A stretch of 64,000 nucleotides of DNA from an uncultured Verrucomicrobia subdivision 3 bacterium (GTDB taxonomy: Bacteria > Verrucomicrobiota > Verrucomicrobiia > Limisphaerales > UBA11358). Position numbers and translations under genes: made by a program. Shown here piece by piece: positions 50,863-58,265 of this stretch; positions within the stretch are counted from its first letter, which is position 1, and every line of letters starts with the position of its first letter. The notes below the pieces were generated by a model. The model searched no databases, was not told the DNA's origin, and was given only the letters and a program-made list of their open reading frames with translations. The DNA is taken from NCBI GenBank assembly GCA_903827955.1, contig CAIKKJ010000075.1, forward strand, positions 32,332-96,331, in the 5' to 3' direction.

Positions 50863-51843
50863 ATGATCATTGCGCGTTCACCACTTCGCATCAGCCTCGG
50901 CGGCGGCGGCACGGACTTGCCGTCGTATTACGAAAAATTCGGCGGCTTCCTCATCGCCGGCGCGATTGACCGCTACGTTTACATCACGCTGCACGAAACC
51001 TTCGTGCCGGATTTGATCGTGAAATATTCCGAGCTGGAACGCGTGCCAGCGGCGGCGCAACTCAAACACCCGATCATCCGCGAAGCCTTTGCCGCGCTGG
51101 GTATGGATGGTCATTCACTCGAACTGACTTCCATGGCGGACATACCGTCGGGAACTGGTCTCGGCTCGTCCGGCAGTTTCACCACCGCGCTGCTCAAAGC
51201 CTTGCACGCGCACAAAAAGAATCTCGTTCACCCCGCCGAACTCGCCGAACAGGCGTGCGACATCGAACTAAACCGCCTCAAAGAACCCATCGGCAAACAG
51301 GATCAATACATCGCGGCGTATGGTGGATTAACGTGCTTCAAGTTTTTGCCCGGCGGCAAAGTCGAAGCGTGGCCGTTGAAAATTTCGGACGAAACGCGCG
51401 ACAATCTCGAAGACAACCTCCTGCTCTTCTTCACCGGCTATTCCCGCAGTGCTTCGGCAATCTTGAAGGAGCAGGATGTGAAATCGAAGTCCGACGACAA
51501 GTCCATGATCGAGAATCTGCACTTCGTCAAAGACCTCGGCCTGCAAAGCCAGGCGGCGCTCGAAAGCGGCAACCTTGCCGAGTTCGCGCGGCTGATGGAC
51601 GTGCATTGGCAGCGCAAGAAACAGCGCAGCGGCGGCATGAGCAATCCCAAGATCAACGAATGGTATGACCTCGCGATGGTCAGCGGCGCACTCGGCGGCA
51701 AGCTCATCGGCGCGGGCGGCGGCGGCTTCCTGATGTTTTACGCGGAGGACAAGGCCAAGCTGCGCCACGCCATGCGCACGGCGGGCCTGAAGGAAGTGCG
51801 CTTCCGGTTTGATTTCGAAGGGACGAAACTCGTCATCTCGTGA
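50863..51843 (+). CDS. hddA: D-glycero-alpha-D-manno-heptose 7-phosphate kinase-like GHMP kinase
   Basis: The 326-residue GHMP kinase starts MIIARSPLRISLGGGGTDLP, closely like HddA, and has motif 2 (DIPSGTGLGSSGSFTTALL) and motif 3 (IGAGGGGFLMFYAED). HddA phosphorylates D-glycero-D-manno-heptose 7-phosphate at C1 (alpha), on the way to GDP-heptose. The partner genes hddC, gmhA and gmhB lie on the same strand but about 5.7 kb downstream, beyond an accessory block. The tracked ORF start at 50239 runs antisense through the SGNH gene. The ATG at 50863 fits the family. Confidence 0.9.
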   Translation: MIIARSPLRISLGGGGTDLPSYYEKFGGFLIAGAIDRYVYITLHETFVPDLIVKYSELERVPAAAQLKHPIIREAFAALGMDGHSLELTSMADIPSGTGLGSSGSFTTALLKALHAHKKNLVHPAELAEQACDIELNRLKEPIGKQDQYIAAYGGLTCFKFLPGGKVEAWPLKISDETRDNLEDNLLLFFTGYSRSASAILKEQDVKSKSDDKSMIENLHFVKDLGLQSQAALESGNLAEFARLMDVHWQRKKQRSGGMSNPKINEWYDLAMVSGALGGKLIGAGGGGFLMFYAEDKAKLRHAMRTAGLKEVRFRFDFEGTKLVIS

Positions 51844-51934
51844 ACGCATTTGACTCGCGTTGAAATGGGAAAAATTCTTTCCGACCACGCGAAAAAGTCT
51901 GGTTCGACCGCGTCCGGCAATCCGTGAATAAGAC
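51844..51934. other. Gene-free spacer between hddA and the 21-nt array
   Basis: These 91 bases after hddA hold no ORF, hairpin terminator or clear promoter. Together with the array and the short leader after it they make up the only gap over 300 bases in the window (51844-52282). One more 21-nt register can be laid upstream of the array but lacks the CTG core. Confidence 0.5.
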
Positions 51935-52249
51935 TTGGCGCGTCTGCCACCGGCTGCGGCCACGCTGACAGTTGAATTGGACGCTCTGCAAGCAACATTT
52001 GCCAGTCGTGCTACGACTTTGTCGGCTCTGTCACCAGCTTTGGCGTATCTGTCAGTCAGATTGGCGATGCTGGCTGTCGGTTTGTAGCATCTGAAGATTA
52101 CTTTTGCCGTGCTGTCAGTCGCTTTATCCGCTCTGTCAGCCACATTTACCGTCCTGCCACCTGACTCCACCCGACTGTCTGCCGCCCTGACCAGACTGGC
52201 TTTTGCACCGGCCTATCTGCCTGTAGATTTTTTGCCACTGACCCCTTGA
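51935..52249 (+). repeat. Array of 15 degenerate 21-nt units with a CTG core
   Basis: Cutting the sequence every 21 bases from 51935 gives 15 contiguous units with no insertion or deletion. Fourteen of the fifteen have CTG at positions 10-12 (the fourth unit has CGT), and eleven begin with TT. The best-kept units carry CTGTCAG, a short palindrome around a central T. Primary identity between units is otherwise low, so ordinary tandem-repeat searches may miss it. Read on the plus strand in the unit frame it gives Leu-x-x-Leu-type heptads (LAYLSVR, FAVLSVA, LSALSAT). That frame has a TAA just before the array, a TAG in unit 8 and no proper start. The minus strand gives Ala/Asp/Arg/Lys heptads. 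It ends 33 bases before the helical protein gene. Confidence 0.85.
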
Positions 52250-52273
52250 TTTTCCGTTCTGTTGTGCAAAATT
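52246..52273 (+). promoter_or_regulatory. Weak candidate promoter at the end of the array
   Basis: TTGATT and AAAATT are separated by 16 bases. The -35-like box overlaps the last array unit, and the start codon lies nine bases past the -10-like box. The -10 box is poor, so this rests mainly on position and on the short-leader habit seen at asd and 53079. Confidence 0.3.
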
Positions 52274-52282
52274 TCTCACCGT

Positions 52283-52978
52283 ATGACTGCCAAACAAGAG
52301 AACAAGTTGTCAATGTTTCTTGCGGTCAAGGCTGTATGCGACCGCAACACAGCGACCATCCAGACGCTCCCCGCGTTTGCCGATGGCTATACGGAGTTCA
52401 CGACGCACGTCGCGAACATTCAAACCCTCGCGCAGAATCAATCCGTGGATGCCACGGGCCTTGCTGCCGACAAACAACAACTCCGCAAAAACATGGCCAC
52501 CGCTGCCGCGACCATCGCCGCTGCCGTCAACGCCTACGCCAAGAAGGTCAAAAACAACGACCTCGCCGCGCAGAGCAGCGTGACCGCCAGCGATATGACC
52601 AGCGGACGCGACACCGCTGCCGCCGACACCGCGCGCAACGTCCACGCCGCCGCGACGGCGAACCTGGCCAACCTTGCGCCCTACGGCGTGACCGCCGCCA
52701 AGCTCACCGACTTGAAGGCCAAGATAGACGCCTACGCCGCGAGCCTGTCCAAGCCGCGTGACGCCGTGGCCTCCGGTTCCACGGCCACCAAGCAATTGGC
52801 CGATGAGTTTGACGCCGCCGATGCCGCGTTGAACGACCAGATGGATGCACTCGTGCCGCAGTTCGCCGCTGCAAACGCGAAGTTTGTGGAGGACTACAAC
52901 AACGCCCGCATCATCGTGGATTCGGGCGGTGGCAAAGCGAAAGCCAAGACGCCCACGCCCAAACCCCCAAGTCCGTAA
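52283..52978 (+). CDS. Alanine-rich helical-bundle protein of unknown function
   Basis: The 231-residue protein starts MTAKQENKLSMFLAVKAVCD and is almost wholly helical by composition, with long runs of Ala, Asp, Lys and Thr. It has no signal peptide, membrane segment or catalytic motif. The last 20 residues form a basic proline-rich tail (GGGKAKAKTPTPKPPSP). I recall similar uncharacterised proteins in Verrucomicrobia and Bacteroidetes, with a pattern of helix pairs broken by a YG-V-T turn and a late P-R-D/A motif, but no function is known to me. The start at 52283 is preferred over 52262. It follows the 21-nt array and has its own terminator, so it forms an isolated unit. Confidence 0.78.
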   Translation: MTAKQENKLSMFLAVKAVCDRNTATIQTLPAFADGYTEFTTHVANIQTLAQNQSVDATGLAADKQQLRKNMATAAATIAAAVNAYAKKVKNNDLAAQSSVTASDMTSGRDTAAADTARNVHAAATANLANLAPYGVTAAKLTDLKAKIDAYAASLSKPRDAVASGSTATKQLADEFDAADAALNDQMDALVPQFAAANAKFVEDYNNARIIVDSGGGKAKAKTPTPKPPSP

Positions 52979-52998
52979 AATAAAATTCGGAAAACACG

Positions 52999-53030
52999 AC
53001 AGCCTCCAGAAATGGAGGCTGTTCTTTTTT
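52999..53030 (+). terminator. Intrinsic terminator of the helical protein gene
   Basis: A perfect 9-bp stem (ACAGCCTCC / GGAGGCTGT) with a 6-base loop is followed by TCTTTTTT. It lies 21 bases after the stop codon and separates this gene from the next transcription unit. Confidence 0.93.
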
Positions 53031-53066
53031 CGGCTCTTTAATCTTTAGGGGCTTTGATGCTGGCAG

Positions 53067-53072
53067 TATAAT
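53067..53072 (+). promoter_or_regulatory. Perfect -10 box giving a probable leaderless mRNA
   Basis: TATAAT ends seven bases before the GTG at 53079, so transcription would begin at or next to the start codon. The -35 region (TTTAGG at 17-bp spacing) is poor. The box follows directly on the upstream terminator. Confidence 0.5.
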
Positions 53073-53078
53073 TCGAGC

Positions 53079-53945
53079 GTGCAAAATGGTCTGAAAGACA
53101 TTGATTTGTCGCCGCCAAGCTTCCGACTCCCACCGGATTTCAAGAAGCACGCGATTACTTTTTTGACCTTTGTAGGCAAAGAAATGCTTTCGACACAGCG
53201 AAATCTTTTTGACGCCATTCAGTCATTCGAGCGTCGGGTTGTCGTAGATAATCATATCGACTGGTTCGGCTTATCGGGGCTGCCTGAAAATTCAAACACC
53301 GCATTCATTTTGGGCACAACGACGGACAGGGAATCGTCACCGTTGAACCTGCTTCTTGAAGATTTATCCGGGAAGCCAAAAGTTCGCAAAAACGTATTCA
53401 TGTTTGGAATGAAGAGTCCTACACACGAAGACATTCTTGCCGGACATCGAACGCCACTCCTTGTGATCTCCCAGTTTGACGAATATGCCACGACGATTTT
53501 GGACATGGATGGCATCCGTAAATTTGACCAGCCTGGCGGGGAAAAGAGTAAATGGGATTCCTCCCGATCAATAAACGATGAGAAGCAAAAGATTTTGGAT
53601 TTGCTGGAAATAAAAAATGTCGGAGAAACCGCACGGCTGAAAGATATAAAACCTTTGGACGGAAAATTGCGTTTGTCCATTGAGCAACAAAGGTCAAAAT
53701 GCTTTAAACGCTTTTGGGAGAGCAACGATGTGGCACGTTTGGCATACTGCCGCTTACTTTTAGGCAAAGATCGTGAGTCACGCAAAGCACGAAAGGAATT
53801 TGAAGCAGAACATTATCCAAATGTGTTCGGCGATCTACACCTCATGCAGAACGCATTGTTTTTTAACGCTGGGTGCGCTAGCGATGACAAAGCGGTGCGG
53901 AAAATGGCAGCTTTTTGTGGAATAGAAAGACTTGAAATGCCATGA
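53079..53945 (+). CDS. Unknown soluble protein, co-transcribed with FG-GAP surface protein
   Basis: I do not recognise this 288-residue protein. It has no signal peptide or membrane segment, is charged throughout, and is Lys/Arg/Glu-rich in its second half (KDRESRKARKEFEAEHYPN). The first half contains hydrophobic strands such as NTAFILGTTTDRESS and TPLLVISQFDEYATTILD, which suggest an alpha/beta core. The start is a GTG placed seven bases after a TATAAT box. An ATG 37 codons downstream is an alternative. The stop overlaps the ATG of the FG-GAP gene by four bases. The coding sequence is AT-richer than the heptose genes on either side, consistent with transfer. Confidence 0.72.
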   Translation: MQNGLKDIDLSPPSFRLPPDFKKHAITFLTFVGKEMLSTQRNLFDAIQSFERRVVVDNHIDWFGLSGLPENSNTAFILGTTTDRESSPLNLLLEDLSGKPKVRKNVFMFGMKSPTHEDILAGHRTPLLVISQFDEYATTILDMDGIRKFDQPGGEKSKWDSSRSINDEKQKILDLLEIKNVGETARLKDIKPLDGKLRLSIEQQRSKCFKRFWESNDVARLAYCRLLLGKDRESRKARKEFEAEHYPNVFGDLHLMQNALFFNAGCASDDKAVRKMAAFCGIERLEMP

Positions 53946-56821
53946 AAATAATCCCTTTTATTTTTGCGCTCATGCTATCCATTGCGCTACAAAAAGCAGC
54001 GGGCCAAGTTCCATTTGCTTCCACTGTTAACTATACAGTGGACACTACGGCAATTACGCTTGCGACAGCAGATGTTAATGGGGATGGTTCTTTGGATCTT
54101 ATATGCGGCGACTATGATTCTAATGCGATTACCGTTTTGACCAACAACGGCAGTGGGCATTTTATTTTCTCTGGTAAGTATACCGTGGGACGGCAGCCCG
54201 TATGCGTGATAACGCCTGATGTAAACGGTGATGGAAAGCCTGACATCGTTTGTTCTAGCGAGGGCACAAACAGGGTTACAGTTTTAACTAACAACAGCAG
54301 CGGGCAATTTTCATTATCATCCACATTAACAGTTGGGGCGTTTCCAGAGTCGGTAGCTGATTCGGATTTTAATGGAGACGGTTGGATAGATTTAGTATGT
54401 GCAAATTATACAGCCAAAACACTGTCATTGTTTACAAATAATGGCGCAGGAGGATTTGTGTTGTCCGCCACCTTGAATGTGCCGAATTCTCCAATCACAG
54501 TAAAAACGGCAGATTTTAATGGAGATGGATGGCCTGATATAATTTGTTCGGATGGCATTCAGACTCTTTTTATAAATAATGGACACGGCGGCTTTAACAC
54601 CAGCACTATCAATGTAAGCGGTAGAGTAAGCACGGCTGACGTCAACAGCGATGGAGCGATAGACCTAATATGCGTCGGCTCACAAATTTCTGTTTTAACA
54701 AACAATGGAACAGGGACGTTTTTGCAATCAAGCTCTTTGCCGAATACACTTGGTGCTGTATACGCTGTTGCGGCAGATGTTGATGGCAATGGTTTTCCTG
54801 ATTTAATGTGGGGAAATGAAAATGGCGGCAACGGAACGACCATTTTCATTTACACGAATAATCTAAATGGAGGTTTCGGATCAAATACAGCTTTAACCGT
54901 CGGATCAGGCCCTTTTCAAGTTATTGCCGCAGATTTTAACAACGATGGGAGATTGGATTTAGCATCAGCAAATGCGGGCACGGGGACAATTTCTGTTTTA
55001 ATCAACAATTCAACCTATACCCCATCTGGTGGACTTCGTGTAAATATTTTACCTTCGAGCGCAGTCAATGTTGGTGCGCAGTGGCAGGTGGATGGTGGCT
55101 CGTGGTTAAATAGTGGTGCATTTGATTATGGATTGCCTGCTGGAAATCATACCGTGACATTTTCGACATTGGCAGGCTGGACTACACCAACGAGCCAGAC
55201 TGTTAATGTTAATCTGAATCAGACGACAAATATATCAGCCTTATATGTTCAACAATTTGGCTCATTGCAGATAAGTCTTTCTCCGACTGATGCGGTGAGT
55301 GCTGGGGCGCTTTGGCAGATAGATGGTGGCAGTTGGCAAAATAGCGGGACAACTTTGGCCGGTTTGCCAGTTGGAAATCATACCGTTACATTTAATACAA
55401 TTAACAGTTGGGTTAAACCGAGCAATCAGTCTTTGGCGATCAGCAATAATCAAACGACATTTTCAACGGGGACATATATCCTGCAAGGCTCATTGCAAGT
55501 GACTCTTTCGCCAGCCGGCGCGGTCAGTGCAGGGGCGCAATGGCAAATAGACGGCGGTGCATGGCAAAACAGCGGGATGACCATTGCCGGGCTTACTGCC
55601 GGTGATCATACGGTATCATTTTCAACGGTGGCAGGATGGGCGACCCCCACGGCACAGACGGTTACGATAAGCAACGGTCAAACCAATACGGCAAATGGAA
55701 TTTATGTTCAGCAGTTCGGGTCTTTGCAGGTTGGTCTTTCACCGTCGGGTGCAGTAAGTGCCGGTGCGCAGTGGCAAGTGGATGGTGTAGCTTGGCAGAA
55801 CAGTGGAGCGACGGTAGGAGGTTTGACGTTGGGAAGTCATCAAATAAATTTTTCGCCAGTGCCGGGTTGGGGGCTGCCAGCGAGCCAAAATGTGACGGTT
55901 TATTACAACCAGACAACCACTGCCGCTGGTAATTATTTGCCGCCTCATCCCGCCACCGCAACGGCCATAACCAACAATGGTTTTGTGGTTGCCGTCACGA
56001 TTGTAGATGGTGGCGTGGGTTACACAAATACCCCTCACGTTTATCTCGTGGGTGGCGGCGGAGCTGGTGCTCAAGGCACAGCCATCGTTAGCAATGGTTT
56101 TGTGATTGGCGTTACCATAACCAATGCCGGTTTCGGCTACACCAATCCGCCGACTGTGGCCATTGCCCCTCCGTTTCCGCTGTGGCTTGGAATCGCACCA
56201 GCAACCAGTCTCGCTTTTACAAATCTCAAAGTCGGCACGAACTACCAGCTTCAAATCTCGCAATCAGCGACGTGGGTAAATCTCGGTTCGTCCTTTGCGG
56301 CTGATGCCACCAACTACACGCAATATTTTGATGGAGCGATTGATGGTTCGATTTATCGGCTGATGGCCCTGCCGCTTCCGTATGGCGCAACCGCCACGCC
56401 GATTTTGGCCTACGGATTTGTTGTCGCGGCCACGGTGAATGATGGCGGTTCTGGCTATGTTTCAACTCCCGGCGTGCAAATCATCGGTGGTGACGGCATC
56501 GGTGCGGTAGCCAAAGCCACTGTCAGCAACGGCATGGTAACGGCAATCACGCTGACCAATGCGGGTTTTGGTTATACCAGTCTGCCCACCATTCAAATTG
56601 ATCCACCCCCCATTTTCGCTTTGCTACCCAGCGTAGTGAAAGCGTTCCGGCTGGATTACAGTGGCTTGACTCCCGCCCTGACGTATCAGCCTCAAGCCTC
56701 ACCGGATTTGTCGGGCTGGATTAATTACGGAACGAACTTCACCGCCACGGATTACACCAACTCGCAATACTTCATCAGCGGGACAAACGGACAGTTCTTC
56801 CGTTTGCTTCTGCTTCCGTAG
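53942..56821 (+). CDS. Secreted FG-GAP/VCBS and PEGA-like repeat surface protein
   Basis: The 959-residue protein has a signal peptide (MKIIPFIFALMLSIALQKAAGQ). Residues about 25-355 hold roughly seven FG-GAP/VCBS-type repeats with calcium-loop motifs such as DVNGDGSLDLICGD and DFNGDGWPDIICSD, the pattern of a beta-propeller. Four tandem 76-78-residue repeats follow (GSLQVTLSPAGAVSAGAQWQ, AWQNSG, HTVSFSTVAGW), resembling PEGA-like beta domains. The C terminus has two copies of a glycine-rich beta motif (TITNAGFGYTNPPTVAI) alternating with small modules ending YRLMALP and FRLLLLP. It is probably exported and acts in adhesion or glycan binding. It is AT-richer than its surroundings and overlaps the upstream gene by four bases. 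Confidence 0.87.
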   Translation: MKIIPFIFALMLSIALQKAAGQVPFASTVNYTVDTTAITLATADVNGDGSLDLICGDYDSNAITVLTNNGSGHFIFSGKYTVGRQPVCVITPDVNGDGKPDIVCSSEGTNRVTVLTNNSSGQFSLSSTLTVGAFPESVADSDFNGDGWIDLVCANYTAKTLSLFTNNGAGGFVLSATLNVPNSPITVKTADFNGDGWPDIICSDGIQTLFINNGHGGFNTSTINVSGRVSTADVNSDGAIDLICVGSQISVLTNNGTGTFLQSSSLPNTLGAVYAVAADVDGNGFPDLMWGNENGGNGTTIFIYTNNLNGGFGSNTALTVGSGPFQVIAADFNNDGRLDLASANAGTGTISVLINNSTYTPSGGLRVNILPSSAVNVGAQWQVDGGSWLNSGAFDYGLPAGNHTVTFSTLAGWTTPTSQTVNVNLNQTTNISALYVQQFGSLQISLSPTDAVSAGALWQIDGGSWQNSGTTLAGLPVGNHTVTFNTINSWVKPSNQSLAISNNQTTFSTGTYILQGSLQVTLSPAGAVSAGAQWQIDGGAWQNSGMTIAGLTAGDHTVSFSTVAGWATPTAQTVTISNGQTNTANGIYVQQFGSLQVGLSPSGAVSAGAQWQVDGVAWQNSGATVGGLTLGSHQINFSPVPGWGLPASQNVTVYYNQTTTAAGNYLPPHPATATAITNNGFVVAVTIVDGGVGYTNTPHVYLVGGGGAGAQGTAIVSNGFVIGVTITNAGFGYTNPPTVAIAPPFPLWLGIAPATSLAFTNLKVGTNYQLQISQSATWVNLGSSFAADATNYTQYFDGAIDGSIYRLMALPLPYGATATPILAYGFVVAATVNDGGSGYVSTPGVQIIGGDGIGAVAKATVSNGMVTAITLTNAGFGYTSLPTIQIDPPPIFALLPSVVKAFRLDYSGLTPALTYQPQASPDLSGWINYGTNFTATDYTNSQYFISGTNGQFFRLLLLP
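55027..55940 (+). repeat. Four tandem ~230-bp coding repeats (PEGA-like domains)
   Basis: Four consecutive units encode G-[SG]-L-[QR]-V...GA-x-WQ-[IV]-DG...NSG...GW...Y-[IV]-x-Q. Units 2 to 4 are the most alike in DNA as well, for example GGCTCATTGCA near the start of units 2 and 3. Such arrays can gain or lose units by recombination. Confidence 0.8.
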
Positions 56822-56846
56822 CCGTAGTTCCAAAGTTTGAGATTGT

Positions 56847-56957
56847 ATGAGCCTTCCGCTTTCCCAAATTCCCGTCGCCATTCTCGCGGGTGGACTCGCC
56901 ACGCGGCTGCGGCCCATCACGGAAAAAATTCCCAAGTCGCTCGTGCCCGTCGCAGGT
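56847..56957 (+). pseudogene. Truncated duplicate of the hddC 5' end
   Basis: From its ATG this segment encodes MSLPLSQIPVAILAGGLATR and continues through VPVAG, matching the first 37 residues of intact hddC at 57549. About seven of 111 bases differ, and several of the changes are silent. After GTCGCAGGTC the similarity stops abruptly. The frame runs on to a TAA at 57015-57017, giving a 56-residue chimera whose end overlaps the antitoxin start. It is the left flank of the toxin-antitoxin insertion. Confidence 0.9.
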
Positions 56958-57007
56958 CACCCGGCTTCACGCTTGTCAAAATTAACCATGTGCGCGAGAC
57001 TTCTCCC

Positions 57008-57534: not shown

Positions 57535-57548
57535 TTTTCAGAAATTAC

Positions 57549-58265
57549 ATGTGCCTTTCACTTTCCCAAATTCCCGTCGCCATTCTCGCGGGCGGACTTG
57601 CCACGCGGCTGCGGCCCATCACGGAAAAAATTCCCAAGTCGCTCGTGCCCGTCGCGGGCCGACCGATTCTCGCGCATCAACTGGAGATGCTCCACGCGCA
57701 GGGTATCCGCAAGGCGGTGCTGTGCATCGGCTTTCTTGGCGAGATGATCCAGCGCGAATTCGGCAATGAGGCTTACGGCATCCAACTGGAGTATTCCTTC
57801 GACGGCGAGAAATTGCTCGGCACCGGCGGCGCGATCAAACGCGCGTTGCCCAAGCTCGGCGAGGAATTTTTCATCCTCTACGGCGATTCGTATCTGCCGA
57901 TTCCCTACGCGCCCGTCTCGGAATTTTTTCATCGCAGCGGCAAGCCCGGCCTGATGACGGTCTATCGCAACGAAGGACTTTACGACACGAGCAACGTGGT
58001 TTTCGCCGATGGCGAGATCAAGGTTTACGACAAGAAAGTCCGTCTGCCGGAGATGCGGCATATTGATTACGGCTTGAGTTTGTTCAAGTCGTCGGTGTTC
58101 GATGCGTATGCCGCCGACCAGGTTTTTGATCTGGCCGAAGTGATGGGCAAACTCGTCCGCGAAAAACAACTTGCGGGCTACGAAGTGCCGGAGCGATTTT
58201 ATGAAATGGGCTCACCTGCGGGCTTGGCAGAGTTGGAGGCGTTGCTACAATCCAAACAATCATGA
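57549..58265 (+). CDS. hddC: Heptose 1-phosphate guanylyltransferase-like nucleotidyltransferase
   Basis: The 238-residue enzyme has the sugar nucleotidyltransferase loop VAILAGGLATRLRPITEKIPKSLVPVAGRPIL, the acidic metal-binding FFILYGDSYLP and an EKLLGTGGAIKRAL block, as in HddC. HddC joins GTP and D-glycero-alpha-D-manno-heptose 1-phosphate to give GDP-heptose. It overlaps gmhA by four bases. The ATG at 57549 is preferred to 57513, which lies in the toxin gene. Relatives that use other sugars exist, but hddA, gmhA and gmhB in the same locus favour heptose. Confidence 0.88.
   Translation: MCLSLSQIPVAILAGGLATRLRPITEKIPKSLVPVAGRPILAHQLEMLHAQGIRKAVLCIGFLGEMIQREFGNEAYGIQLEYSFDGEKLLGTGGAIKRALPKLGEEFFILYGDSYLPIPYAPVSEFFHRSGKPGLMTVYRNEGLYDTSNVVFADGEIKVYDKKVRLPEMRHIDYGLSLFKSSVFDAYAADQVFDLAEVMGKLVREKQLAGYEVPERFYEMGSPAGLAELEALLQSKQS

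Follow-up and report, generated by a model that had tools for sequence, protein, structure and literature searches.

The window, a stretch of 64,000 nucleotides from an uncultured Verrucomicrobia subdivision 3 bacterium, carries a heptose operon in which an HddA-like kinase gene and an HddC-like nucleotidyltransferase gene, neighbors in most congeners, are separated by a compact block. This block is comprised of a short left flank, a non-coding array of 21-nt units, a gene for an alanine-rich helical protein and an intrinsic terminator (Table 1). A preliminary description of this DNA had recognized a module inside the heptose operon and a strong terminator at its end, and both points hold. It had also set the end of the array 33 bases before the ATG, which is about right: the clear part of the array stops approximately 42 nt before the start codon and weaker units reach to within 7 nt of it.

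Table 1. Features at the insertion site in the window (positions are those of the window)
Feature	Position	Strand	Remarks
HddA-like GHMP kinase, flanking gene	50863-51843	+	Its stop codon marks the left boundary of the insertion
Whole insertion, missing from most congeners	51844-56838	+	Block plus two unrelated ORFs
Left flank of mobile block	51877-51936	+	Derived from a split thrS half-gene (3' end)
21-nt tandem array, non-coding	51940-52275	+	16 degenerate units, one register, no indel
Helical-bundle protein gene, no described family	52283-52978	+	231 aa, Pro-rich C-terminal tail
Intrinsic terminator closing the block	52998-53023	+	11-bp stem with CTTTTTT behind it; homology between copies ends immediately 3' of it
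ORF of no family, inside insertion, outside block	53079-53945
FG-GAP protein, inside insertion, outside block	53942-56821
HddC-like nucleotidyltransferase, flanking gene	57558-58265	+	Directly 3' of the kinase in most congeners

The periodicity of the array is well above what base composition and neighbor preferences produce. The lag-21 identity over positions 51934-52282 is 0.476 vs 0.267 +/- 0.026 for first-order Markov resamples (z 8.1), and the maximum of 2000 such resamples at this lag was 0.354. Identity is 0.489 at lag 42 and 0.458 at lag 63, and off-register it is 0.249 at lag 20 and 0.297 at lag 22. Tandem Repeats Finder did not detect the array because its units are too degenerate. 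A cis element that keeps its period and not its sequence is hard to reach by homology or motif searches, and this one was found by periodicity only.

The suggestion that the module moved in as a block is supported by the genomic organization of its relatives. Of about 25 informative congeners, 17 have the kinase and nucleotidyltransferase genes side by side, with a gap within 42 bp in 16 of them and of 129 bp in the other. The copy in the window and two copies located at thrS have the flank, the array, the gene and the terminator in common and diverge right after the terminator, so that the claim stands for these four parts; it has to be corrected in that the insertion of approximately 5 kb also holds two unrelated ORFs that are not shared. 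In the two genomes with thrS-located copies (G028, locus L053, and G069, locus L052) the block lies directly behind the N-terminal half of thrS, and the end of this half-gene forms the block's left flank; in G069 the C-terminal half is found after another 5 kb or so. The left end of the block in the window consists of about 60 bp of thrS-derived sequence, 92% identical to the interval between the thrS N-terminal half and the array at both loci, and its presence there indicates that the block moved together with its left flank. In another genome (G006) only the first ~50 bp of the array are left at the same kinase/nucleotidyltransferase site. The comparison rests entirely on draft genomes, most of them metagenome-assembled, and a misbinned contig (for example in G069) cannot be excluded.

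Two further observations concern these sites. The thrS gene has been split repeatedly in the genus by insertions of about 2-8 kb (seven loci, one of them, L217, in the window's own genome); the insertion point is one internal loop, residues 318 to 368 of the intact 687-aa protein (G018), and the split ThrRS may work in two pieces. In the window, a 125-bp direct repeat (90%; positions 56839-56963 and 57541-57665) corresponding to the 5' end of the nucleotidyltransferase gene brackets an inserted Unstab_antitox/ParE pair, as if this insertion had restored the nucleotidyltransferase by duplicating the start of the gene.

The preliminary description had inferred that the array is the fixed partner of the protein, a claim that homologs routinely lacking an upstream 21-nt periodicity would refute. 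Homologs were gathered from the window's own genome (two), from 25 of 146 relatives, from 40 of 320 genomes of the order and from named GTDB genomes of Verrucomicrobiota and Bacteroidota; the two Bacteroidota orders searched contained homologs in 6 of 7 and 34 of 295 genomes. For members with at least 400 nt of readable upstream sequence, an array was scored when the best upstream lag between 12 and 60 was 21, 42 or 41. This was the case for 107 of 143 homologs (lag 21 in 55, 42 in 50 and 41 in 2); among the other 36, 30 had no lag reaching 0.45 and a few gave 14, 20, 44 or 55. Downstream of the gene, lag 21 was found in 8 of 104. In 946 kb of flanking DNA there are 67 period-21 segments vs 2 to 5 for each other period from 16 to 26; the 67 include arrays that recur in overlapping loci, coding heptad repeats and runs of N. 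The arrays contain a median of 14 units and lie at a median distance of 135 nt from the start codon. On the protein tree both deep clades have them, and members without an array group together; two seeming absences (L024, L042) have their array about 2-4 kb away from the gene, with another ORF between. The array is thus a fixed companion of the protein family, 5' of the gene, in two phyla, and the partnership is real and old; the routine absence that would have refuted it did not occur. Likewise, the statement in the preliminary description that related genomes hold many copies proved correct: one related genome has as many as 7, and a Bacteroidota genome has 11.

Several loci depart from the usual arrangement. 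At L145 (3970-8091) a long methyltransferase-like gene has seemingly landed between the array and the helical-protein gene, and two family members (L293, L337) have array periods of 20 and 22. An orphan 21-nt array (L210, 3703-4118) follows the nucleotidyltransferase of the heptose operon in G017, whose genome yielded no copy of the protein gene.

Comparison of the window with L053 gives 92% identity for the flank, 80% for the gene and 87% from the stop codon to the terminator vs 55% for the array, and beyond the terminator the sequences are unrelated. The array in the window nevertheless differs in length from those at L053 and L052 by exactly one 21-nt unit. The array is the part of the block that changes fastest, and it keeps its register. 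Unit G+C ranges from 14% to 76%, some arrays are near-perfect (L097, L103, L231) and others very degenerate. Arrays from the same genome are no more similar (0.293) than arrays from different genomes (0.282), and array similarity, which is higher on the same strand, tracks protein identity only above about 65%. The unit sequence is private to each locus. Two loci (L249 and L256) have upstream flanks of 215 bp that are 82% identical beside unrelated arrays, and the proteins of L258 and L251 are 78% identical while their arrays are unrelated, which is awkward for sequence-specific recognition. A unit is shared by a few distantly related pairs from different phyla, such as L007 (Verrucomicrobiota) and L061 (Bacteroidota), which have a similarity of 0.70 and carry the common unit in the same orientation with respect to the gene.

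The register is kept through this turnover. In 35 arrays we counted 4 phase jumps vs about 3400 mismatches to each array's own consensus, and in 50 further arrays 12 jumps vs 5071 mismatches. Because arrays were chosen by their lag-21 signal, which favors unbroken ones, the contrast is at most as large as these ratios suggest. Within the unit, the main peak of column entropy is at 10.5 nt (k2 0.205 vs 0.126 for an AR(1) null, 34 non-redundant arrays). Several spectra had been examined when this peak was picked out post hoc, and in the first Bacteroidota subset taken by itself it did not reach significance (p 0.83); for these reasons it was retested on 47 later-fetched arrays, where it was 0.240 vs 0.136 (0/1000; one-sided Wilcoxon p 1.2e-4). 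Conserved positions therefore recur every 10.5 bp in a register of almost exactly 21 bp. The length of 21 bp corresponds to two turns of B-DNA, and a pair of conserved patches in each unit, with one patch to each turn, is the trace expected of contact from one face of the helix. Dyad symmetry of the units is very weak (mean z 0.28). A 7-nt sub-repeat hinted at by the base spectra was not borne out by autocorrelation.

The protein encoded next to the array has been described as alanine-rich and helical, and this is what we find: 231 aa, 24% Ala and an AlphaFold2 model that is all helical with a mean pLDDT of 91. The family is conserved over about 215 residues; most verrucomicrobial members end in a Pro-rich tail, and Bacteroidota members are often longer, with a carboxypeptidase-regulatory-like domain in both of those tested by Pfam. 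Searches of Pfam, NCBIfam, PHROGs, PADLOC and PDB sequences gave nothing convincing, with one weak DUF4407 match below the Pfam cut-off, and family searches found no HTH or other DNA-binding family in the protein. Foldseek returned no match at E <= 0.001; the best VIA-align hits (Z 8.8) were chemoreceptor sensor bundles (HBM fold: McpS, TorS), within the noise expected for helical bundles. The pI of most members is neutral or acidic (5-7), and this is evidence against simple DNA binding through the helical domain alone. No relatives of the window protein were found in phages, plasmids or viral contigs, including 72,556 plasmid records without a match.

Taken together, the evidence points to an unknown kind of DNA element that works with a protein. 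The reading that we prefer, with a probability of roughly 0.4, is a two-part module of array and helical-bundle protein in which the array is read as double-stranded DNA from one face by the module's own protein or a complex containing it. The constraint on helical spacing makes a row of proteins on double-stranded DNA the most economical reading, and we infer that one face of the array would be contacted by protein in a regular row. One step further, the protein of the row would be the product of the neighboring gene or a complex that includes it; a fixed, private pairing makes this the simplest account, and binding has not been shown. Each copy would then autoregulate through its own array, used as a cis-acting platform for nucleation or as an operator, or would treat that array as its private DNA address. 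With less assurance, we also propose that the whole may be a satellite-like system, present in at least two phyla, whose conserved information lies in the 21-bp spacing rather than in the letters and in which each gene copy has a private, fast-changing array that its own protein holds in helical register.

The main rival is that host proteins read a helically phased regulatory region and the helical protein is merely the regulated product; RNA polymerase alpha subunit, IHF/HU-like proteins or other nucleoid proteins could be such readers. We regard this as doubtful, although the register and the 10.5-bp evidence also fit it, the array is always 5' of the gene (at the median distance given above), and independence from unit sequence is what such a region would show and what is seen. 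Predicted curvature gives it mixed support: the 21-bp phasing raises it to 1.101 vs 1.049 for shuffled sequence and 1.086 and 1.068 for arrays re-spaced to 20 or 22 bp, but not above column-permuted 21-bp arrays (p 0.19), and intrinsic curvature was rejected as a selected trait. Host readers also leave unexplained why one protein family in two phyla should need such a region.

It is improbable that the array is a functionless by-product of slippage or unequal exchange that then decays, its unit length set by the copying mechanism. Arrays that range from near-perfect to very degenerate, with quickly turning-over units, are what this would produce, but decay should leave indels, and about 85 arrays show 16 phase jumps vs about 8500 mismatches, a contrast somewhat inflated by selection; the 10.5-nt conservation and the restriction to one gene family would require another cause.

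An array that acts as RNA, whether as a repeated leader, a protein-binding decoy or a processed short-RNA precursor (type III toxin-antitoxin-like or CsrB-like), is less credible again. Its fixed 5' position and orientation would suit such a role, and in three Bacteroidota copies the array is preceded by a block containing a promoter-like TTTG...TAAACATTTG and could thus be transcribed; a promoter scan in Bacteroidota gave too few sites for placing transcription starts. Against this, folding of both strands gave no signal (mean z -0.02 vs shuffles, 37 arrays), Rfam gave no match above threshold, no terminator-like site was found on the + strand between array and gene (51800-52280, window only), and neither a 21-nt register nor conservation with a 10.5-nt period would be expected of unpaired RNA. 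The idea that the array is translated, or is a relic of coding heptad repeats, is close to refuted: 21 nt is 3 x 7 and some arrays are open in one frame, but minimum stops occur as column resampling predicts (32 observed vs 34 expected) and no 3-nt period is present in the variability, both of which indicate that the array is not coding, and phase jumps are mostly of 1 nt and members with periods 20 and 22 exist.

Among known systems, plasmid iterons are direct repeats of about 20-22 bp in helical phase beside one protein gene, with units that differ between replicons. The likeness extends to the direct-repeat array in helical phase, the single adjoining gene and the varying unit; the differences are that the present module is chromosomal (in an operon or the thrS loop) and multicopy, with 14 units at the median, and that no Rep initiator or winged-helix domain was found in the family at the thresholds used. 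Single-protein plasmid partition loci such as pSK1 par are similar in that the cis site of their one protein is a repeat array upstream of its gene, but our module differs in that no HTH was found, in being chromosomal and in having many private arrays per genome. By analogy, the preferred DNA-protein module would work in outline as Rep does on iterons or as a single partition protein does on a centromere. Type III toxin-antitoxin systems (ToxIN) also place a tandem repeat array directly upstream of one protein gene; here the module has no array-gene terminator (in the window), no RNA structure and a helical protein, and no ToxN-like endoribonuclease was identified by Pfam, NCBIfam or PADLOC families in 35 members, the model being all helical. 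CRISPR and TIGR arrays differ in that the present units are contiguous (21 + 0 nt) without unique spacers. Eukaryotic centromeric satellites, as an analogy only, share fixed unit length, fast turnover and within-array homogenization; their units are nucleosome-sized and not 21 bp, and the present arrays are bacterial and tied to one adjacent gene.

A full-text literature search gave no description of the module in the open-access subset covered, most subscription journals and bioRxiv preprints being outside it. No described system that we found matches, and the module could be an unusual iteron- or centromere-like kind. If our preferred reading is true, it would be a widespread bacterial DNA-protein module without a named family and a bacterial case of concerted evolution, satellite-like and linked to one gene; what fixes the length of a repeat unit would then become a simple question of re-spacing. 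Finally, the thrS insertion in the window's own genome (L217) contains a different array, of period 42 nt (490-790), upstream of an unrelated ORF of 287 aa (828-1691), possibly a second family of like design.
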